From Isosphaera sp. (lineage in GTDB: Bacteria > Planctomycetota > Planctomycetia > Gemmatales > Gemmataceae): a stretch of DNA of 64,000 bases. The notes beneath the pieces are model-generated. The model saw only the letters and a list, made by a program, of their open reading frames with translations. It was not told the DNA's origin and made no database searches. The translations under genes and the position numbers were made by a program. Positions 4,975 through 27,877 of the stretch are shown here, one piece after another (the first letter of the stretch is position 1; every line of letters starts with the position of its first letter). Where the stretch lies: positions 1 to 64,000 of the forward strand of contig PNKH01000012.1 in assembly GCA_013822345.1 (NCBI GenBank), read 5' to 3'.

Positions 4975-6696
<1,722 letters not shown>

Positions 6697-7081
6697 GAGG
6701 GTACTCCTGCGCTGCGGCGGAAACGGTTCCGTCGGTGGGGTTACGGTTGTGACGTTCGGCGGCGGACGGGCGGACAGACCATGACGTGGACGATCGGCGT
6801 TCCGCCAGGATGAGAGATTCGGTCGGTTCGGAGGCGTCAGGCGCGACGGTCGAATTTACCGGAGATTCACAAGGGCCGGGGCGAGTCACGAACGGCGACG
6901 CAAGATGAAGGCCTGATGAGTCCAGTGTGACGGCGGGACGCGGCCGTGGCAAGTGAAAAGTCGGTGACCGCGCCGCATTTCATTCATCGACCGGCACGTC
7001 GGCTGACTATCCGTAGCACAAGCGTCCTCGCTTGTGCCGCGCCGTAAGAGGCACAAGCGAGGACGCTTGTGCTACGGATGG
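6697..7081. other. Non-coding gap upstream of the gspE-like gene
   Basis: This 385-base stretch lies between the 3' end of the kinase gene and the start of the gspE-like gene. I find no convincing coding sequence. The left two thirds (6,700-7,000) is the likely promoter region of the motor gene set, but I could not pick a clear -35/-10 pair. The right end holds a perfect 30-bp hairpin (separate entry). Confidence 0.6.
7009..7079. repeat. Perfect 30-bp inverted repeat
   Basis: Arms 7009-7038 and 7050-7079 are exact complements (key motif AGCACAAGCGTCCTCGCTTG) with an 11-base loop. Pairing extends outward several bases with one mismatch. It sits directly after the stop codon of the minus-strand kinase gene, the position of a terminator, though no T tract follows. 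Confidence 0.92.
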
Positions 7082-8602
7082 TCAGCTCTCGTCCGGCGGT
7101 TCCTCCGGCTTCTTCCGGGCGAGCCGGGCCAGGCCGTAGCCGAGGCCGACGGCGGCGAGCACCCCGGCCGCCCCGGCGGCGAGCATGATCCAGTCGCGGC
7201 GGTCGAGTTCGGTGAGCGGCCGTGCCGTGACCGGCGCGGCGCCGGTCACCAGTTCCACGTCCACCTCCTCGGTGGCGTCCAGCGGGACCGGGACCGGCCG
7301 CATCCGCGCGGACTTCGGGCCGGGCGGGGGGCCGTTGCCGAGCGGGACGGCGGCCACCGGGGCCGGCTTCGCGGGCGGGGCCGGGACGGCCCGGGGCTTC
7401 GGGGTCGGGGGCAGCGGGGTCGGCTTCGGCGGGGGCGGGGTCGGCACCCCGTGCTGCGACTCGGTCTCCAGCCACGCCTTGTACTCCGGCACCAGTAGTG
7501 CCGGGGCCGGGGCGGTGCCGTGGGTGCCGACGAACCCCGCCAGGGCGTCGGCGGCCGCGGCCGGGGTCGGGTAGCGGTCGTCCGGGGACTTGGCGAGCAT
7601 CCGGTCGAGGACCGGCTGGAGGCCGGGCGGGATGTCCGGGGCGGAGTCGGCCAGCGGGGCCGGCATCTCGGTCGCGTGCAGCAACATCTGCGTCATGATG
7701 TTGGTTTCGGGGAACGGCGGGCGGCCGGTCAGGCAGTGGTACAGGACGCACCCGAGGCTGTAGATGTCGGCCCGGATGTCGGAGCTGCGGGCGTCCCGGG
7801 CCTGCTCCGGGGCCAGGTAGTCGGGCGTCCCGAGGACCGACCCCTCGACCGTCAGTTGGGTCTCGATCTGGCCCTCGGGGGTGGCGTCGTCGAACAGCTC
7901 GCGGCCGAGGCCGATGTCGAGGATCTTGACGGTCGCGTCCCAGGTGTGGTCCGGGCGGCCGGCGGCCAGGCCGGGGGTGAGCATCAGGTTGGCGGGCTTC
8001 AGGTCGCGGTGGACCATCCGCCGGTCGTGCAGGTGCTGGAGGCCGCTGGCGGTCTGGTGGGCGAGGCGGACGGCCTCGGCCCACGGGAGCCGGCCGCGGC
8101 GGCCGAGCACGTCGTCGAGGGTTTCCCCTTCGAGGTACTCCATGCCGATGAAGTGGACGCCGTTCTCCTCGCCGAACTGGTACGACCGGACGACGTTCGG
8201 GTGGTCGAGCTGGGTGAGGAGGCGGGCCTCGCGCTGGAACCGGCCGAGGAGGTGCTGGTCCTTGGCCTTGGAGGCGGGGAGGATCTTCAGGGCGACGAGC
8301 TGGCCGAAGGTGTGGACGGCCTTGTACACCCCACCCATCTGGCCCTTGCCGATCCGGTCGAGGATCTTGTACCCGCCGATGAAGAACCCGTCGGCCCGGC
8401 CGCGCTGGACCATGTGGCCCTGCCAGTCGGTCAGGTGGCGGCGGGAGACGAGGTACTTGCGGAACCGGTCGACCTGGTCGTCCCCGCCGCGGCCGTCGTC
8501 GAGCCACTTGCGGTGGATCGCCTCGACCTCCTCCGTGGGGAGGAGCTTGCTCTTGGCGAGCAGGGCACAGAACTCCCGGACGGTCGTGGTTTGGGTGGCC
8601 AT
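7082..8602 (-). CDS. Membrane-anchored Ser/Thr protein kinase (PknB-like)
   Basis: This is a 506-residue Hanks-type kinase. Residues 1-85 form the short helical N-terminal region often found on planctomycete kinases. The kinase domain follows, with glycine loop GKGQMGGVY, Lys in VALKILP, catalytic loop HRDLKPANLML (His about residue 198) and GTPDYLAPEQA. The DFG motif reads DIG, which keeps the metal-binding Asp. A Pro/Ala-rich linker leads to one membrane helix (about 475-495) and a basic tail, so the catalytic domain should face the cytoplasm. I chose ATG 8602; the frame is open further upstream but has no kinase-like sequence there. A second kinase-like gene lies immediately upstream on the same strand. 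Confidence 0.93.
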   Translation of the reverse strand: MATQTTTVREFCALLAKSKLLPTEEVEAIHRKWLDDGRGGDDQVDRFRKYLVSRRHLTDWQGHMVQRGRADGFFIGGYKILDRIGKGQMGGVYKAVHTFGQLVALKILPASKAKDQHLLGRFQREARLLTQLDHPNVVRSYQFGEENGVHFIGMEYLEGETLDDVLGRRGRLPWAEAVRLAHQTASGLQHLHDRRMVHRDLKPANLMLTPGLAAGRPDHTWDATVKILDIGLGRELFDDATPEGQIETQLTVEGSVLGTPDYLAPEQARDARSSDIRADIYSLGCVLYHCLTGRPPFPETNIMTQMLLHATEMPAPLADSAPDIPPGLQPVLDRMLAKSPDDRYPTPAAAADALAGFVGTHGTAPAPALLVPEYKAWLETESQHGVPTPPPPKPTPLPPTPKPRAVPAPPAKPAPVAAVPLGNGPPPGPKSARMRPVPVPLDATEEVDVELVTGAAPVTARPLTELDRRDWIMLAAGAAGVLAAVGLGYGLARLARKKPEEPPDES

Positions 8603-21866: not shown

Positions 21867-21895
21867 TTGCCGTCGGCCGCCCCGGCACTTACACT
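21867..21895 (+). promoter_or_regulatory. Promoter of the SAM-riboswitch unit
   Basis: TTGCCG (21867-21872), 17 bases, TACACT (21890-21895). The expected start near 21,902 is about 46 bases ahead of the riboswitch, a usual spacing for leader-controlled units. Confidence 0.6.
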
Positions 21896-21947
21896 TCTCC
21901 CAACCCCAGCGCCCGCCGCCGGGGGCTGACAACTTGCGCTGGTGAGC

Positions 21948-22105
21948 ATCTTATCCAGAGTGGCTGAGGGGCCAGGCCCGACGACGCCACAGCAACCGGC
22001 CCGGAACCCGCGTCGCCCGACGCGGCCCGAGGTGCAGGTGCTAACTCCTGCCCGGCAAACGCCCCGACCGACGACGGGTCGCGGTATGGCCGGGGAAGAT
22101 AAGAT
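21948..22105 (+). promoter_or_regulatory. SAM-I riboswitch (S-box)
   Basis: The leader carries the S-box consensus in order: CTTATCCAGAG with CTGAGGGGCCAGGCCCGACG, then CCACAGCAACCGG, then AGGTGCTAACTCCTG, and a closing GATAAGAT. P1 is an exact 8-bp pairing of 21948-21955 with 22098-22105. These are the S-adenosylmethionine-binding core elements, so it should sense SAM and lower expression when SAM is plentiful. It precedes a threonine-synthase-like gene with a ThiS/MoaD-like and an E1-like gene behind it, which places that set in methionine or sulfur metabolism. Confidence 0.9.
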
Positions 22106-22141
22106 CTCGCGCGGGGGCGACCCCGCCGACCCCTCTTATCT
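22097..22141 (+). promoter_or_regulatory. Riboswitch expression platform with competing pairing
   Basis: AGATAAGA (22097-22104), the 3' strand of P1, is also exactly complementary to TCTTATCT (22134-22141). Between them is a perfect 6-bp hairpin, GCGGGG with CCCCGC (22111-22126). SAM-bound RNA would use P1, and SAM-free RNA could use the distal pairing. No U tract follows, so control of a downstream structure, of Rho access or of translation is more likely than a simple intrinsic terminator; that is inference. Confidence 0.6.
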
Positions 22142-22252
22142 CACCGCACCCGCCGGGGCCCACCCGCGGGCCTCACACTGGACGAGACCGACTCACCCCG
22201 CCACCGGACCCGCCGCGCCCCCCGCGCCGCGCCCACCACAGGGGTGTTCTCC

Positions 22253-23515
22253 GTGCCCAGGACCGACTTCGCCACCGGGATGACCTGCCGCGTCTGCGGC
22301 AAGCTCTACCCGAAGTCCGCCATCAACTTCTGCGTCGACGACTTCGGCCCGCTCGAGGTCAGCTACGACTACGACGCGGCCCGGCCGGCCCTCACCCGGG
22401 CGGAACTCGCCCGGCGGCCGTGGAACATGTGGCGCTACCGCGAGCTGCTGCCGCTCGACGGCGAGCCGACCGTCGGCCGGGATGTCGGCGGCACCCCGCT
22501 CGTCCGCGCCGACCGCCTCGCCGACGCGCTGGGCGTCGAGCGGTTGTGGATCAAGAACGACGCGGTCAACTTCCCGACGCTGTCGTTCAAGGACCGGGTC
22601 GTGTCGGTCGCCCTGAGTAAGGCCCGCGAGTTCGGGATGCGGACGGTCGGGTGCGCCAGCACCGGGAACCTGGCGAACAGCGTCGCGGCGCAGGCGGCCA
22701 GCGCCGGCCTCGAAACCTTCATCCTCGTCCCGGCCGACCTGGAGCGGACGAAGATCTTCGGCACGGCCGTGTACGGGGCGAAGGTGATCGGGGTGACCGG
22801 CACCTACGACGAGGTGAACCGGGTCTGCACCCAGATCGCGCTGAAGTACGGGTGGGGGTTCGTGAACGTCAACCTCCGGCCGTTCTACGCCGAGGGGTCG
22901 AAGACGATGGGGTTCGAGATCGCCGAGGAGTTGGGCTGGCGGTTCCCGCAGCACGTCGTCGCGCCGATGGCCGGCGGGGCGCTGATCGGCAAGATCCACA
23001 AGGCGTTCACCGAGTTGCACAACATCGGCCTGGTGGACGCACCGGTGACGACGAAGATGTACGGGGCGCAGGCGACCGGGTGCAACCCGATCGCGGACTG
23101 CGTGAAGTCGGGGCGGGAGCGGCACAAGCCGGTGCGGAAGCCGGCCACGATCTGCAAGAGCCTGGCCATCGGCGACCCGGCCGACGGGTACTTCGCGGCG
23201 AAGCTGATCCGCCAGACCGGCGGGTGGGCGGAGGACGTGTCGGATGAGGAGATCGTCGACGGGATGCTGCTGCTGGCGAAGACGGAGGGCGTGTTCGCGG
23301 AGACGGCCGGCGGGACGACGGTGGCGGTGGCCCGGAAGCTGATCGAGGCCGGGCGGATCCCGCGGGACGAGGAGATCGTGCTCTGCGTCACGGGGAACGG
23401 GTTGAAGACGCAGGACGCGGTGTTCGACGCGCTGGAGCCGCCGGCGACGATCGCCGCGACGCTGGCCGCGTTCGAGGAGCTGGCCGGGCTGAAGGCGGAG
23501 CCGGTGCTGGTGTGA
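22253..23515 (+). CDS. Threonine synthase-like PLP enzyme under a SAM riboswitch
   Basis: This protein of about 420 residues is of the threonine synthase family (fold type II PLP enzymes). A CRVCGKLYP ... C segment at the N-terminus is the small Cys-rich leader of many bacterial threonine synthases. PLP Lys is about residue 113 in TLSFKDRVV, followed by ASTGNLANSVAAQ (phosphate loop) and VAPMAGGALIGK. GTG 22253 is my start because AGGGG lies about 8 bases upstream; GTG 22244 and ATG 22280 are alternatives. A true threonine synthase repressed by SAM would be odd. The gene is followed by a Gly-Gly carrier and an E1 enzyme, so use of a protein thiocarboxylate as sulfur donor is possible. The substrate is not shown. 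Confidence 0.88.
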   Translation: MPRTDFATGMTCRVCGKLYPKSAINFCVDDFGPLEVSYDYDAARPALTRAELARRPWNMWRYRELLPLDGEPTVGRDVGGTPLVRADRLADALGVERLWIKNDAVNFPTLSFKDRVVSVALSKAREFGMRTVGCASTGNLANSVAAQAASAGLETFILVPADLERTKIFGTAVYGAKVIGVTGTYDEVNRVCTQIALKYGWGFVNVNLRPFYAEGSKTMGFEIAEELGWRFPQHVVAPMAGGALIGKIHKAFTELHNIGLVDAPVTTKMYGAQATGCNPIADCVKSGRERHKPVRKPATICKSLAIGDPADGYFAAKLIRQTGGWAEDVSDEEIVDGMLLLAKTEGVFAETAGGTTVAVARKLIEAGRIPRDEEIVLCVTGNGLKTQDAVFDALEPPATIAATLAAFEELAGLKAEPVLV

Positions 23516-23525
23516 GTTGGTGTCG

Positions 23526-23562
23526 GGTGGGCCGAGGCCGCGCCTCGCGGCCTCGGCCCACC
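23526..23562. repeat. Perfect 17-bp hairpin
   Basis: GGTGGGCCGAGGCCGCG, CCT, then its exact complement. It lies 10 bases after the PLP-enzyme stop codon, between that gene and the carrier-protein gene, with a second partial pairing (GCCGGCG) to 23,600. Confidence 0.9.
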
Positions 23563-23625
23563 GTGGGGCGCGTGGTGGGACTCGCCGGCGAAGCGCCGGC
23601 TCGGCCCACCCTACGAGAGGAACCG

Positions 23626-23898
23626 ATGGCGATCCGCGTCGAGATCCCCGGTCCGCTGCGCGAGCAGGCCGGGGGGAACACCGAGGTGGCGGTGACCGGG
23701 GCGACAGTCGGGGCGGCCCTGGCCGACCTCGTCCGCCAGCACCCGGCGCTGGAGCCGAAACTGTTCCAGAACGGCGCCCTCCGGCCGTACATCAACGTGT
23801 TCGTCAACGACGAGGACATCCGCTACCTCGACGAGATGGACACGAAGGTGACCGACGGCGTGATCGTGGCGCTGATCCCCGCGGTCGCCGGGGGGTGA
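23626..23898 (+). CDS. MoaD/ThiS-family sulfur-carrier protein
   Basis: This is a 90-residue beta-grasp protein ending in VAGG. The C-terminal Gly-Gly is the site adenylated and thiocarboxylated by an E1 partner in ThiS, MoaD, CysO and HcyS. The pattern LREQAGG ... ATVGAALADLVRQHPAL ... INVFVNDEDIRYL ... ALIPAVAGG is that of the MoaD/ThiS family. GAGAGG lies 7 bases before the ATG. The E1-like gene that could load it starts 545 bases downstream. The PLP enzyme upstream would be the acceptor if it acts as in CysO/CysM. Confidence 0.9.
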   Translation: MAIRVEIPGPLREQAGGNTEVAVTGATVGAALADLVRQHPALEPKLFQNGALRPYINVFVNDEDIRYLDEMDTKVTDGVIVALIPAVAGG

Positions 23899-23901
23899 GG
23901 A

Positions 23902-23986
23902 GATGGGGTGAACGGGTGAGGGAGTGAAGGGGTGAGAAGAGGGCTGGTTTTGTCACCCCTTCACCCCCTCACCCGTTCACCCCTTC
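23902..23986. repeat. 34-bp inverted repeat, type E family
   Basis: Arms 23902-23935 and 23953-23986 pair with one or two mismatches and match the fae/mtdB element (13,181) in sequence and orientation of the GGTGAACGGGTGAGGG motif. It lies right after the carrier-protein stop codon. Confidence 0.92.
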
Positions 23987-24009
23987 ATGGAGATCGGTGG
24001 GCAGCACGC

Positions 24010-24342
24010 ATGGCCGACGACGCACCCCCGACCGAGGCCCCCGACGGGGCGGCCGTGTTCCCGCTGATCCCGGCGGAGCTGGGCGTCCACCCGCTGCTGC
24101 TGGCGGTGCTACACGCCTACGTCTTCCTCGAAGGCTCCGACGCGGCGGTGCTGAACCCGGCGGCCGCCGAGGAGGCGATGCAGTACCTGGTCGGGTACCT
24201 CCAGCGGCTCCGCGGCGACGCCCTCCGCAAGGCCCGCGAGGACATGGCCGCCCTCGCCGGGTTCGCCAAGGCCGAGAAGTGGCCGAAGCAGCAGGTCCGG
24301 TTCCTGCAAGACTTCCTGAAGGACAACGGCATCACCACCTGA
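24010..24342 (+). CDS. Small helical protein in the sulfur-carrier cluster, hypothetical
   Basis: I do not recognise this 110-residue protein. After an acidic, Pro-rich start, it is nearly all helical and Leu/Ala-rich, with a VLHAYVFLEGSDAAVLNPAAAEEA-like segment (about 35-58) and a charged second half. There is no JAMM/MPN metalloprotease motif (HxHxxxxxxxxSxxD), so it is not the missing peptidase of the CysO or HcyS systems. It lies between the carrier gene and the E1 gene on the same strand, so it may be an accessory subunit. Confidence 0.7.
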   Translation: MADDAPPTEAPDGAAVFPLIPAELGVHPLLLAVLHAYVFLEGSDAAVLNPAAAEEAMQYLVGYLQRLRGDALRKAREDMAALAGFAKAEKWPKQQVRFLQDFLKDNGITT

Positions 24343-24343
24343 C

Positions 24344-24428
24344 GCGTAGCCGCGACGCGGAGTCCTCGGAGCGGAGCGCGGGCGCCTGCCCCGCGCTCCG
24401 CTCCGAGGACTCCGCGTCGCGGCTACGC
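24344..24428. repeat. Perfect 39-bp inverted repeat
   Basis: Arms 24344-24382 and 24390-24428 are exact complements with a 7-base loop; motif CGGAGTCCTCGGAGCGGAGC. It lies between the helical-protein gene and the E1-like gene, 15 bases before the E1 ATG, and would fold into the longest perfect stem in the window. Confidence 0.96.
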
Positions 24429-24442
24429 GGGGACGTTCACCC

Positions 24443-25498
24443 ATGACCGACCCGAACCCGCTCGAGCGCTACTCCCGGCAGATGCGGTTCCCCGGCCTCG
24501 GCAAGGCCGGACAGGAGAAGTTGCTCGCGTCCCGGGTCACCCTGTGCGGGTGCGGGGCGCTCGGCACCGTGCTCGCGAACACCCTGGTCCGGGCCGGGGT
24601 CGGGTTCGTCCGCGTCATCGACCGCGACTTCGTCGAGCCGTCCAACCTCCAGCGGCAGGTGCTGTTCGACGAGGCGGACGTGGCGAACAACCTGCCGAAG
24701 GCCGAGGCCGCGGCGGTGAAGCTGCGGCAGATCAACTCGTCGGTCCGCGTCGAGCCGGTGGTCGCCGACATCAACCGCACCAACATCGAGGAGTTCTGCC
24801 GGGACGCCGACCTGATCCTCGACGGGAGCGACAACTTCGAGATCCGCTACCTCATCAACGACGTGGCGATCAAGCACGGCAAGCCGTGGGTGTACGGCGG
24901 GGCGGTCGGGGCGGAGGGGATGACGATGACGGTCATCCCGGGCGAGACGCCGTGCCTGCGGTGCGTGTTCGAGGCGGCCCCGGCGCCGGGTGAGACCGGG
25001 ACGTGCGAGACGGCCGGGGTGCTCGCCCCGGTGGTCAGCATCGTGGCCAGCTACCAGGCGACGGAGGCGATCAAGCTGCTGTCGGGGAACAAGGCGGCGG
25101 TGAACCGCGAGCTGTTGATGCTGAACGTGTGGGAGAACACGACCCGGCGGGTGAAGGTGGCGCCGCTGGCCGGGCGGAAGGGGAAGTGCCCGTGCTGCGC
25201 GGTACGGAACTTCGAGTGGCTGGACGGGGCGCACGGGACGCAGACGACGACGCTGTGCGGGCGGAACGCGGTGCAGGTGTCGCACCGGGCGGCGGGCACG
25301 CTCGACTTCGGGTACCTGGCGGGGGTGCTGAGGCAGACCGGGACGGTGAGCTACAACAAGTTCCTGTTGAAGTTCAGCCTGGTGGAGAACGGGGACCCGT
25401 TCGAGTTCACGGTGTTCCCGGACGGGCGGGCGATCATCAAGGGGACGAGCGAGCCGGACCGGGCCCGCACCCTGTACGCGAAGTACGTCGGGCACTGA
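24443..25498 (+). CDS. ThiF/MoeB/HesA-type E1-like adenylyltransferase
   Basis: This 351-residue protein is an E1-like enzyme that adenylates the C-terminal glycine of a ThiS/MoaD-type carrier. Residues 1-250 have the ThiF fold: YSRQMRFPGLGKAGQEKL, the nucleotide loop CGCGALGTVLANTL, RDFVEPSNLQRQ, and SDNFEIRYLINDV. A CLRC (about 172-175) and CPCC pair forms the zinc site, and the Cys in TGTCETAGV is in the catalytic-Cys position. An additional C-terminal domain of about 90 residues follows. The carrier (23,626) and PLP enzyme (22,253) lie upstream on the same strand. This set resembles the CysO and HcyS relays in type, but no JAMM peptidase is in the window. Confidence 0.92.
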   Translation: MTDPNPLERYSRQMRFPGLGKAGQEKLLASRVTLCGCGALGTVLANTLVRAGVGFVRVIDRDFVEPSNLQRQVLFDEADVANNLPKAEAAAVKLRQINSSVRVEPVVADINRTNIEEFCRDADLILDGSDNFEIRYLINDVAIKHGKPWVYGGAVGAEGMTMTVIPGETPCLRCVFEAAPAPGETGTCETAGVLAPVVSIVASYQATEAIKLLSGNKAAVNRELLMLNVWENTTRRVKVAPLAGRKGKCPCCAVRNFEWLDGAHGTQTTTLCGRNAVQVSHRAAGTLDFGYLAGVLRQTGTVSYNKFLLKFSLVENGDPFEFTVFPDGRAIIKGTSEPDRARTLYAKYVGH

Positions 25499-25514
25499 TC
25501 GGAGGAGGACGCCG

Positions 25515-26144
25515 ATGGGTTCCGCCGCCCGCGTGACGACGCCGCCCGTGCCGGCGACCCCGCCGGTCGCCCTGGCCGGCCGCCCCGTCTACCGGGTTAC
25601 CCTCGACCAGTACCACCGGATGATCGACGCCGGGGTGTTCGTCGGCGCCCCGAAGTGCGAGCTGATCCACGGCGTCCTGCTGGAGAAGCCGGTGCCCGAC
25701 CCGCCCCACTCGACCTCGACCCGGCGCCTCCTCCGCCGCCTCCTCCCGTACTTCCCCGAACCGGACTGGGTCGTCGGCGTCCAGGACTCGATCACCCTGT
25801 CGGACAGTGAGCCGGAGCCGGACTTCTTCGCCGCCACCGGCCCGGAGGGGAAGTACGCCGACCGGCACCCCGGGCCGAAGGACTTGGTCCTGGTCGTGGA
25901 GGTGTCGGACAGCCGGGTCGGGTTCGACCGCGGGACGAAGCTGGCGCTGTACGCCGGGTCGAAGGTCGTTCAGTACTGGATCGTGAACCTCGTCGACCGC
26001 CGCGTCGAGGTGTACACGCAGCCGCGCGGCGGCAAGAACCCCGGGTACAAGCAGCAGACGAACTACGGCCCGGGCGACGAGGTGCCGGTCGTCGTGGGCG
26101 GCACGGAACTCGGCCGCATCCCGGTGGACGAACTCCTGCCGTGA
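25515..26144 (+). CDS. Uma2-family PD-(D/E)XK endonuclease-like protein
   Basis: This 209-residue protein has the Uma2 (DUF820) layout of the PD-(D/E)XK superfamily: CELIHGVLLEK (Glu), PEPDFF (Asp), LVVEVSDS (Glu) and the following FDRGTKLALYA (Lys). Such genes are very abundant in planctomycetes and cyanobacteria, with unknown function. It starts with GGAGGAGG about 5 bases upstream. It follows the E1-like gene by 16 bases, so it may share its transcript; a functional link to sulfur transfer is not shown. Confidence 0.85.
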   Translation: MGSAARVTTPPVPATPPVALAGRPVYRVTLDQYHRMIDAGVFVGAPKCELIHGVLLEKPVPDPPHSTSTRRLLRRLLPYFPEPDWVVGVQDSITLSDSEPEPDFFAATGPEGKYADRHPGPKDLVLVVEVSDSRVGFDRGTKLALYAGSKVVQYWIVNLVDRRVEVYTQPRGGKNPGYKQQTNYGPGDEVPVVVGGTELGRIPVDELLP

Positions 26145-26173
26145 CGTGGTACGATGGCGGGTGGAGGTGCCCC

Positions 26174-26470
26174 ATGCCGGAGATCGTGCTGACCGACGAG
26201 CAGGCGCGGGTGGTCGCCGGGGCGACCGCCGCGGTCTGGGTCCGGGACCCGAGCGGCGGGCTGGTCGGGACCATCGACCCGCGGGACGCCGAGTGGATCG
26301 AGGTGGCGAAGCGGCGGCTCGCCGCCCCGCGGGGGCCGGGGATCCCGGGCCGGACGGTGCAGGCCCACCTGGCGGCCCTCCAGGCCGAGTGGGACCGGCT
26401 CGGCGGGTTCGACCGCGAGTACGCCCTGGCCTTCCTCGCCAAGCTCCGGGCCGAGGGCGGGGATGGATGA
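26174..26470 (+). CDS. Antitoxin-like small protein
   Basis: This 98-residue acidic/helical protein immediately precedes a ParE/RelE-like toxin gene, overlapping it by 8 bases, the usual order and coupling of a type II toxin-antitoxin pair. No classical DNA-binding motif is clear; the sequence starts with IVLTDEQARVVAGA. The start ATG has GGAGG upstream. Confidence 0.65.
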   Translation: MPEIVLTDEQARVVAGATAAVWVRDPSGGLVGTIDPRDAEWIEVAKRRLAAPRGPGIPGRTVQAHLAALQAEWDRLGGFDREYALAFLAKLRAEGGDG

Positions 26471-26735
26471 CTTCGAGCTGAGGTTGCTGCCGGCCGCCGA
26501 GGACGACCTGGCCGACATCTGGGTCCGCGCCCCGGACCGGGCGGCCGTCAACCGGGCGGACGCGCTCGCCGACCAGCTGCTCCGCCGCGACCCGGTCGGG
26601 AACGGCCGGCTCGTCGCCGAAGGGCTGTACCGCCTCACCCTCCCGCCGCTCGCCTACTACTACGCCGTGGACACCGACCGGCGGCTGGTCGAGGTGTCCG
26701 TCATCCGCGAGGTCCGGCCGTCGTCACCCCCATGA
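26463..26735 (+). CDS. ParE/RelE-family toxin
   Basis: This 90-residue protein has the ParE/RelE layout: LLPAAEDDLADIW at the start, a short helical hairpin with LADQLLRRDPVGNGRL, and the C-terminal beta strands YRLTLPPLAYYYAVD and VEVSVIREVRP. It overlaps the antitoxin by 8 bases, and its stop codon overlaps the ATG of the cysteine desulfurase gene by 4 bases. Whether it targets gyrase (ParE) or mRNA (RelE) cannot be told. Confidence 0.8.
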   Translation: MDDFELRLLPAAEDDLADIWVRAPDRAAVNRADALADQLLRRDPVGNGRLVAEGLYRLTLPPLAYYYAVDTDRRLVEVSVIREVRPSSPP

Positions 26736-27877
26736 TCTACCTCGACAACGCGGCCACCAGCTTCCCCAAGCCGGAGGGCGTGTACGCCGCCCTCGACCGG
26801 TTCGCCCGCACCAGCCTGGCCAACCCCGGCCGGGCCGGGCACAAGATGGCGCTGGCCGCCGAGCACGCCCTCGACGACGCCCGCCACCGCCTCAACCGCC
26901 ACTTCAACGGCCGCAGCCCCGACCGCTGGGTCTTCACCCTCAACGGCACCGACGCCCTGAACATGGCGTTCAAGGGCGTCCTGAACGACGGCGACCACGT
27001 CGTCACCACCGACCTCGAGCACAACAGCGTCTCCCGCCCGCTCGTCGCCCTCGCCGAGGCCGGCCGCATCACCCTCACCCGCGTCCCGGCCGACGCCGGC
27101 GGGACGGTCGACCCCGCGGCCGTCGCCGCCGCCCTCACCCCGAAGACCCGGCTCGTCGCCGTCACCCACGCCAGCAACGTCCTCGGCACCGTCCAGCCGG
27201 TCGTCGACATCGCTGCGGTCGCCCGGACCCGCGACGCCCTGGTCCTCGTCGACGCGGCCCAGACCGCCGGCGTCGTCCCGCTCGACGTGCAGGCCGCCGG
27301 CATCGACCTCCTCGCCTTCCCCGGGCACAAGTCGCTCCTCGGCCCGACCGGCACCGGCGCCCTGTACGTCGGCCCGCGCGTCCACCTCCGGCCGTGGCGC
27401 GAGGGCGGCACCGGCGGCGACTCGTCCACCCCGACGCAGCCGAAGGAGTTCCCGTACTACCTGGAGGGCGGCACCCCGAACGTCCTCGGCGTCGCCGGGC
27501 TGGTCGCCGGCCTCGACTACGTCGAGGAGCACGGCGTCGATGCGATCCGCCGGCACGAGGTCGAGCTGTGCGACCGGCTGCGGGCGTCGCTCGCGGAGGT
27601 GCCCGGGTTCGAGGTGTTCGGCCACGCCGACCCGGCCCGCCGCGTCGGGACGGTCGCGTTCCGGTGCGAGGTCATGCCGGCGGCCGACCTCGGGGCGATC
27701 CTCGACCAGTCGTTCGACATCGCCCTCCGCCCCGGGCTGCACTGCGCCCCGTACGTCCACCGGGCGCTCGGCAGCTACCCGGACGGCCTCGTCCGGGTCA
27801 GCCCCGGGCCGTTCAGCACCCCCGCCGACATCGACCACCTGATCGGGGCGCTCCGGGAGGTCACCGGCGGGATTTGA
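26732..27877 (+). CDS. Cysteine desulfurase-type PLP enzyme (class V aminotransferase)
   Basis: This 381-residue protein is of the NifS/SufS/Csd group, which takes sulfur from cysteine as an enzyme persulfide. Conserved parts are IYLDNAATSFPKP (N-terminus), DLEHNSVSRP, VDAAQTAG, and PLP Lys in FPGHKSLLGPTG. The C-terminal GLHCAPYVH holds a Cys in the group II (SufS-like) persulfide position. It has a 4-base overlap (ATGA) with the toxin gene. It could supply sulfur to the ThiF-like enzyme at 24.4 kb; this is inference from proximity. Confidence 0.9.
   Translation: MIYLDNAATSFPKPEGVYAALDRFARTSLANPGRAGHKMALAAEHALDDARHRLNRHFNGRSPDRWVFTLNGTDALNMAFKGVLNDGDHVVTTDLEHNSVSRPLVALAEAGRITLTRVPADAGGTVDPAAVAAALTPKTRLVAVTHASNVLGTVQPVVDIAAVARTRDALVLVDAAQTAGVVPLDVQAAGIDLLAFPGHKSLLGPTGTGALYVGPRVHLRPWREGGTGGDSSTPTQPKEFPYYLEGGTPNVLGVAGLVAGLDYVEEHGVDAIRRHEVELCDRLRASLAEVPGFEVFGHADPARRVGTVAFRCEVMPAADLGAILDQSFDIALRPGLHCAPYVHRALGSYPDGLVRVSPGPFSTPADIDHLIGALREVTGGI

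Follow-up and report, generated by a model that had tools for sequence, protein, structure and literature searches.

Background

Threonine synthase (ThrC) converts O-phosphohomoserine to a beta,gamma-unsaturated intermediate on pyridoxal phosphate (PLP), to which water is then added. In the CysO-CysM system the thiocarboxylate of a carrier protein is the nucleophile, and HcyS-HcyF-HcyD of Wolinella, with MetY (a member of PF01053), reportedly use a thiocarboxylate for homocysteine, as Krishnamoorthy and Begley are said to have described in 2011. In Streptomyces, metO is said to adjoin metM, and MetO is reportedly thiocarboxylated. Here we describe a gene cluster headed by an S-adenosylmethionine (SAM) riboswitch of class SAM-I in the first 64,000 nucleotides of contig PNKH01000012.1 of the planctomycete Isosphaera sp. 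(GCA_013822345.1); this whole stretch is referred to as the window, and the assembly, 7.47 Mb in size, as the window genome, of which contigs C1, C8, C14, C31 and C139 are named below. Our reading is based upon the genes, the clade of the PLP enzyme, the company that its genes keep in other genomes, the riboswitch and the rival pathways that are missing. Taken together, these make it very probable that the cluster specifies a MetM/MetO-type route to homocysteine, in which carrier-bound sulfur would be transferred onto O-phosphohomoserine under SAM control.

MetM of Streptomyces (Hasebe et al. 2024, Appl Environ Microbiol 90:e01247-24) produces homocysteine from O-phosphohomoserine, has a SAM riboswitch upstream and is accompanied by a gene of the carrier family, metO, according to a later paper citing that work (PMC12172450). 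In kind, therefore, the scheme is already known; the original prediction, made from the DNA letters alone and leaving open whether such a set had been described, reached the published route independently. The two systems share a ThrC-like PLP enzyme, a sulfur-carrier gene, an upstream SAM riboswitch and, in the window genome, separate ThrC-type genes. The window unit encodes in addition an E1 enzyme, a cysteine desulfurase and a helical protein, and in many other loci the extra component is a NIL domain. The link to MetM was made through the published description and a locus of Nonomuraea gerenzanensis from the plasmid collection (L226), rather than through the S. albulus sequence. L226 contains a SAM-I riboswitch (68.7 bits), a ThrC-like gene (49.8% identity) and a carrier ending in AVAGG, in that order, and its enzyme falls inside the clade described below with a support of 100/100 in the careful tree. 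Based upon this gene order and placement, we file the window unit under the MetM/MetO kind. What is new is a SAM-I-headed cluster that includes both an E1 and a desulfurase, the link to NIL domains, the spread over little-studied groups, the carrier-less relatives that are their genomes' sole ThrC, and a candidate for the methionine pathway of anammox bacteria.

The resemblance to other described systems is partial. As in Wolinella, a carrier and an E1 would furnish a thiocarboxylate for homocysteine, but the window enzyme is of the PF00291 ThrC type and not of PF01053. Further, as originally noted, no JAMM peptidase was matched by Pfam or NCBIfam among the genes scanned from 22244 to 27877, to which the search of the window genome for this family was confined. 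The cluster has in common with CysO-CysM-Mec of Mycobacterium a PLP enzyme of the PALP fold and a MoaD-like carrier, with a JAMM-like gene in 12 of 80 related loci (here and below, the 80 most similar of at least 588 relatives found in a scan of named genomes); it differs in being of ThrC type, SAM-controlled and in a methionine instead of a cysteine context. That operon class is described in PMC1779556, in the relevant passages of which the term "threonine synthase" does not occur. Lastly, a NIL/ferredoxin protein is required for homocysteine synthesis in Desulfovibrio; in the DUF39/NIL-ferredoxin/COG2122 route, sulfur is thought to be placed onto aspartate semialdehyde, and the same 2018 paper states that at least one homocysteine route is still undiscovered, naming Aquifex, Pyrolobus and Acidimicrobium (PMC5764234). 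The participation of a NIL domain in homocysteine synthesis is a shared trait, but HcyBio (DUF39) was unmatched in 66 of the 67 genomes that we searched.

Organization of the cluster

All elements of the unit lie on the + strand, in the order SAM-I riboswitch, ThrC-like PLP enzyme, Gly-Gly carrier, small protein, E1, Uma2, two small genes and cysteine desulfurase. The riboswitch aptamer (21948-22105) matches RF00162 over model positions 1-108 of 108 with 70.1 bits against a cut-off of 44.4, and is the sole SAM-I found in the window genome. It is followed by the gene for the ThrC-like enzyme, a candidate MetM-type homocysteine synthase (22244-23515; GTG start, with an ATG at 22280 also possible), which matches PF00291 and scores 290 bits with TIGR00260 (thrC; cut-off 167). 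The MetO-like carrier (23626-23898, from the ATG at 23626 to the end of the stop codon at 23898) resembles MoaD, ThiS and SAMP1, ends in AVAGG and scores 65.5 bits against the NCBIfam SAMP1 cut-off of 60. The E1-like adenylyltransferase expected to activate it (24443-25498) matches PF00899 with 258 bits; its best NCBIfam match, PRK12475 of the MoeB/ThiF family, reaches 361 bits, below the cut-off of 510, and CLRC and CPCC pairs are visible in its translation. The expected sulfur source is a cysteine desulfurase family protein (26732-27877; TIGR01977, 397 bits, cut-off 377). Family and riboswitch searches, together with the translations, thus bore out the anatomy of the predicted unit, namely the riboswitch, PLP enzyme, Gly-Gly carrier, 110-residue protein, E1 with CxxC pairs and later desulfurase. 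Of the eight nearest loci, six (L145-L149 and L151) have a relative of the desulfurase after the E1; none was seen in L150, and L144 is cut short. The order ThrC-like enzyme, carrier, E1, desulfurase recurs in six other genomes of the phylum (G141, G076, G171, G056, G185 and G111).

We envisage that the desulfurase would take sulfur from cysteine, and that the E1 would adenylate the C-terminal glycine of the carrier, the sulfur then displacing adenosine monophosphate (AMP) to give the carrier thiocarboxylate. With PLP, the ThrC-like enzyme would convert O-phospho-L-homoserine to the beta,gamma-unsaturated intermediate, as in threonine synthase, to which the carrier sulfur would add at C-gamma in place of water at C-beta. 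The carrier would then be released and homocysteine left, no JAMM peptidase having been found in the window cluster to assist. When SAM is plentiful, the riboswitch would shut the unit.

A possible expression platform occupies 22098-22142 (+ strand), where the 3' strand of aptamer helix P1 (GATAAGAT) could pair with the downstream CTCTTATC instead. It is drawn from a fold of 22092-22300, the energy of which is not unusual (z -1.19). The downstream copy of the P1 strand is identical at seven of eight positions, a result matched by one of 200 shuffles (p 0.005); such copies are clear in the window and in some relatives, unclear in most of the 47 other loci, and are not put forward as a general feature. 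An intrinsic terminator was considered for this role and rejected, since a T run was not visible in 22106-22243, which makes translational or Rho-dependent control possible.

The enzyme clade and its neighbours

Our phylum sample comprised 199 genomes, that of the window included. The clade is present in 33 of these and absent from 166; the 32 members besides that of the window are 51 to 64% identical to it, nothing further exceeds 42%, and two of the clade genes (G131 and G138) are in pieces. In a quick tree, 112 clade proteins were set apart by a long branch with full support; the program itself issued a warning about this stem and other long branches. A careful tree of 48 rows again separated the clade with a support of 100/100. 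The records for the best 80 relatives come from Planctomycetota, Verrucomicrobiota, Kiritimatiellota, Omnitrophota, Nitrospirota, Nitrospinota, Pseudomonadota (Mariprofundus) and Thermodesulfobacteriota, as well as Myxococcota, Methylomirabilota, Acidobacteriota, Binatota, Rokuibacteriota, Elusimicrobiota and Armatimonadota. Judged by its sequence, the ThrC-like enzyme belongs to a separate clade, which has members in more than ten phyla. A Haladaptatus protein (L227, about 40% identity) was dropped from it, since in the careful tree this fell outside together with two phylum rows at 40%; L082, L083 and L084 were retained as outgroup only.

The structural model of the window enzyme (predicted local distance difference test, pLDDT, 90) has threonine synthases as its four top solved chains (Z 43.9 to 40.5) and cysteate synthase as the fifth (40.2). 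The stretch NSxNPxRxEGQK of the solved threonine synthases is not present in it, reading NVNLRPFYAEGSK instead. A clade version, NxNxRxxYxEGxK, occurs in 105 of 112 clade rows, with L193 off by one residue and six rows giving no match. We considered this version as a mark of carrier-linked function and rejected it, because it is kept in all 13 of the carrier-less rows listed, among them members that are their genome's sole ThrC; the ThrC copy on contig C1 of the window genome is likewise devoid of NSxNP (STLKEPYRLEGKK).

The most constant neighbour is the carrier: 78 of the 80 loci by tblastn, and 77 by a hidden Markov model (HMM), have one at most 1.7 kb downstream in the same orientation. 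The misses are L153, where the contig ends 353 bases past the gene, L181 by tblastn and, by HMM, L194 too; the carrier of L152 is truncated by a contig end. For the riboswitch, a model built from 15 phylum sequences was used and hits were accepted at E 5.2e-11 or better, the next one having E 0.67. SAM-I precedes the match in 47 of the 80 loci, in the same orientation and at a distance of 42 to 999 bases, so that the expected co-occurrence of the clade with carrier and riboswitch was recovered beyond chance. Within the phylum, it precedes the clade gene above the Rfam cut-off in 17 of 33 genomes (in G138 adjoining the other piece of the gene) and below the cut-off at the corresponding place in G141. 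As controls, 34 of the 166 genomes devoid of the clade were hand-picked; each was at least 90% complete, and nine came from one family. Under strict filters any SAM-I was found in three of these. The same filters located SAM-I elsewhere in the genome in G193 and G086, and second copies in G198 and G056.

NIL domains were found with our own HMM in 45 of the 80 loci, six of which have the domain fused to the carrier and 39 a separate gene no more than 3 kb away in the same orientation; hits on the other strand (L166) or 3.2 kb away (L213, one of the five seed rows of the HMM) were excluded. Fusions of NIL to the carrier also occur in five planctomycete loci (L051, L057, L060, L061 and L063), and all 13 NIL proteins run against Pfam, namely three planctomycete fusions and ten separate proteins, pass the NIL cut-off. 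Many carriers extend past Gly-Gly, sometimes by a whole NIL domain, and some carriers consequently do not end ready for activation. In Nitrospirota the ThrC-like gene and an ordinary ThrC can share a single operon, as in L207, which contains in series the ThrC-like gene, carrier, NIL, an ordinary ThrC (TIGR00260, 328 bits), a proposed homoserine kinase (TIGR02535, 565 bits) and an aspartate kinase.

Rival pathways and alternative explanations

At E 1e-40, MetX was found in two of the 33 clade genomes versus 19 of the 34 controls. PF01053, the family of MetB, MetY and MetZ, was absent at E 1e-50 from seven clade genomes versus one control, six of the seven being at least 93% complete. HcyBio was matched in one clade genome and in no control. 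In a wider set (42 of the 80 loci chosen, the genomes of 41 searched), PF01053 was absent from 25 of 41, the completeness of those genomes not being given. The window genome yielded neither MetX at E 1e-40 nor HcyBio, MetA and methionine synthase lying outside the search, and to that extent a complete canonical homocysteine pathway under SAM control was not seen in it. Its one strong PF01053 gene (C31:18138-19259) scores 555 bits with the cystathionine gamma-synthase model (cut-off 513), and a cystathionine beta-synthase (CBS)-like gene (C31:20539-21405; 508 bits, cut-off 510) lies at a distance of about 1.3 kb, beyond an intervening open frame; from their family scores this pair looks like reverse transsulfuration.

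Carrier-linked members of the clade are accompanied by another ThrC-type gene. Two further ones, predicted by family score, are present in the window genome (C1:40277-41311 and C139:10429-11481), so that the ThrC-like gene is not the only one of its type there. A second TIGR00260 match at E 1e-20 was found in all 18 carrier-linked phylum genomes and exceeds the cut-off in 15, the others being G171 and G182 (both partial) and G001. A second ThrC-type gene is also present in G088 and G195, which have the riboswitch but no carrier seen nearby, and in G131, where the clade gene is cut by a contig end and which was excluded from the carrier and no-carrier classes. In the wider set, 39 of 41 genomes have at least two matches, that of carrier-less L181 among them, and those of L218 and L167 have one. 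The second ThrC, the rarity of MetX and the missing PF01053 led us to judge transfer of carrier sulfur to O-phosphohomoserine the best reading. This is also what the original prediction had proposed, namely a ThrC-like enzyme taking sulfur from a carrier onto an O-phosphorylated amino acid in a SAM-controlled methionine route, and the company of the clade and the pattern of rival pathways support it. Of the conditions that would have spoken against it, two were examined in part, and neither a sole ThrC nor a complete SAM-controlled canonical pathway was observed.

The explanation that survives best beside it, very unlikely in our estimate, is a homocysteine synthase which uses free sulfide, or whose substrate is a differently activated homoserine (an acyl ester, for instance), the carrier regulating or assisting it. 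In favour of this, the clade departs from the canonical sequence around NSxNPxR, many carriers run on past Gly-Gly, and an acyl-homoserine acceptor is possible, MetA being outside the pathway searches; against this, MetX was not seen in 31 of 33 clade genomes, the E1 and desulfurase are inside the window cluster, and published MetM acts on O-phosphohomoserine, as the pertinent text of PMC12172450 has it.

That the enzyme is an ordinary threonine synthase, the carrier and riboswitch being there for other reasons, we regard as highly improbable. The TIGR00260 score above cut-off and the four top solved folds speak for it, as do the carrier-less genomes discussed below and the threonine formed in vitro by a Microcystis relative, which is reported in the corresponding section of PMC12172450. 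It is opposed by the additional ThrC-type genes of the window genome and of all 18 carrier-linked genomes, and by the replacement of NSxNPxRxEGQK in 105 of 112 clade rows, though the C1 copy is also without NSxNP; moreover, it leaves SAM-I control and the NIL company unexplained. Lastly, a cysteine route like CysO-CysM, with O-phosphoserine or O-acetylserine as acceptor, is a most improbable reading in spite of the MoaD-like carrier and E1, the JAMM-like genes in 12 of 80 loci (one was run against NCBIfam and scored 100 against a desampylase cut-off of 130) and the cysteine-synthase-like genes near many loci (two run against NCBIfam were one CysK and one E1), since the enzyme is of ThrC and not of CysK/CysM type (PRK10717, the sole cysteine-synthase model among the best 25 of 41 matches, gives 38.8 against a cut-off of 387), a separate CysK lies above cut-off on C14 of the window genome, the riboswitch senses SAM, and a cysteine-consuming desulfurase would make such a route circular.

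Several observations weigh against carrier-dependent homocysteine synthesis as a general role for the clade, or against the counts that favour it. No carrier adjoins the gene in 12 phylum genomes (nine of family f26, two of f68 and the f25 genome G021); a second ThrC was found only in G151, below cut-off, and in the other 11 the ThrC-like gene is the sole TIGR00260 match at E 1e-20. These members lie inside the clade on long branches, at positions that differ between the quick and careful trees. Some clade members thus probably make threonine, and the distribution points to an early presence of the carrier in the family and to its loss in those lineages in which the enzyme turned into, or back into, the threonine synthase. 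In G088 and G195 the riboswitch and gene are present, but a carrier was not found in the 17 to 19 kb around them. G185 and G111 hold the cluster together with MetX and a PF01053 gene, so that other routes may exist beside it. A MetM-like ThrC of Microcystis, encoded next to a metO-like gene, behaved as a threonine synthase and deaminase, methionine not being raised, in the experiments covered by the relevant part of PMC12172450. A considerable M+1 pool was reported in the methionine of Kuenenia, for which canonical precursors predict M+2 (PMC8027424, in its labelling results), and the proposed route leaves this pool unexplained. As for the counts, 12 of the 33 clade genomes are less than 90% complete and are set against controls that were hand-picked and partly from one family; the genomes are kin, so Fisher values on these counts are too small; and the 500-bit cut-off for MetX was met by none of the 67 genomes nor by 14 named ones, so that MetX was called by E-value alone.

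Anammox bacteria and wider distribution

Hydrazine synthase alpha (PF18582), which we take to be a mark of anammox, was matched above cut-off with 84 to 108 bits in seven of the eight f45 genomes and in G182, G138 and G114. From these matches, the genomes concerned are probably those of anammox bacteria. In Kuenenia stuttgartiensis, methionine was labelled from formate and bicarbonate without an annotated methionine pathway, as stated in the sections of PMC8027424 (2020) on this amino acid. The clade is put forward as a candidate for the anammox methionine pathway; the two f45 genomes without a carrier near the gene (G088 and G195) count against this.

We also offer a broader picture, which is tentative and, taken whole, unlikely. 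A SAM-gated MetM relay would operate in many little-studied phyla, with a NIL partner binding methionine or homocysteine and thereby gating it; in Gemmatales the helical protein would replace NIL and the relay would be self-contained, with its own E1 and desulfurase; and the relay would be the missing methionine pathway of anammox bacteria.

The annotation of metabolism has an acknowledged gap where homocysteine routes are concerned, and, since the clade scores as TIGR00260, routine annotation would label it a spare ThrC. If the MetM/MetO-type route is correct, a clade ThrC beside a Gly-Gly carrier, whether or not SAM-I and NIL are present, is to be read as a homocysteine synthase by default, and holders of the clade should not be called methionine auxotrophs merely for lack of MetB/MetY/MetZ.

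Separately, the window genome contains two weaker matches to PF18582, at C8:411-725 and C8:108775-108924, of 47 and 40 bits. These too are above cut-off; the genome is not otherwise shown to be anammox.

Adjacent genes and variant arrangements

The small protein between the carrier and the E1 (24010-24342, + strand, 110 amino acids) has relatives in seven of the 80 loci (L144-L150). Pfam and NCBIfam gave no match at E 0.01, nor did Pfam at E 0.1; its predicted structure has a mean pLDDT of 87 with four helices and no strands. The idea that it is a hidden NIL domain is unsupported, given the lack of a Pfam match at E 0.1 and the helical model. Long inverted repeats, noted by eye, occupy the flanking gaps at 23899-24000 and 24343-24440, and may be hairpins or elements like repetitive extragenic palindromes (REP).

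Uma2 (25515-26144, + strand) was confirmed by Pfam, and four of the nearest relatives (L145, L146, L147 and L149) have genes near the cluster which resemble it, as judged without a family scan. The two small genes between it and the desulfurase (26141-26470 and 26463-26735, + strand) had been called a toxin pair; this label was not confirmed, both being without a match in Pfam or NCBIfam at E 0.01.

In G115 and G146 (loci L080 and L077), SAM-I heads a homoserine dehydrogenase and a homoserine kinase, both identified by eye, and a carrier-less ThrC-like gene which is the only TIGR00260 match of its genome; this looks like SAM control of a threonine operon. In L052 and L081 (G182 and G138), the place after the carrier taken in other loci by an E1 is occupied by what appears by eye to be an AMP-forming ligase together with a small gene; the ligase-like gene may be an alternative activator of the carrier or a chance neighbour. 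Upstream of the riboswitch, ThrC-like gene and carrier of L053 (G198), a JAMM-like open reading frame is followed by another encoding a carrier-E1 fusion (5647-7589). Finally, L186, L201 and L203 have a tandem pair of carriers after the ThrC-like gene, both with AGG ends.

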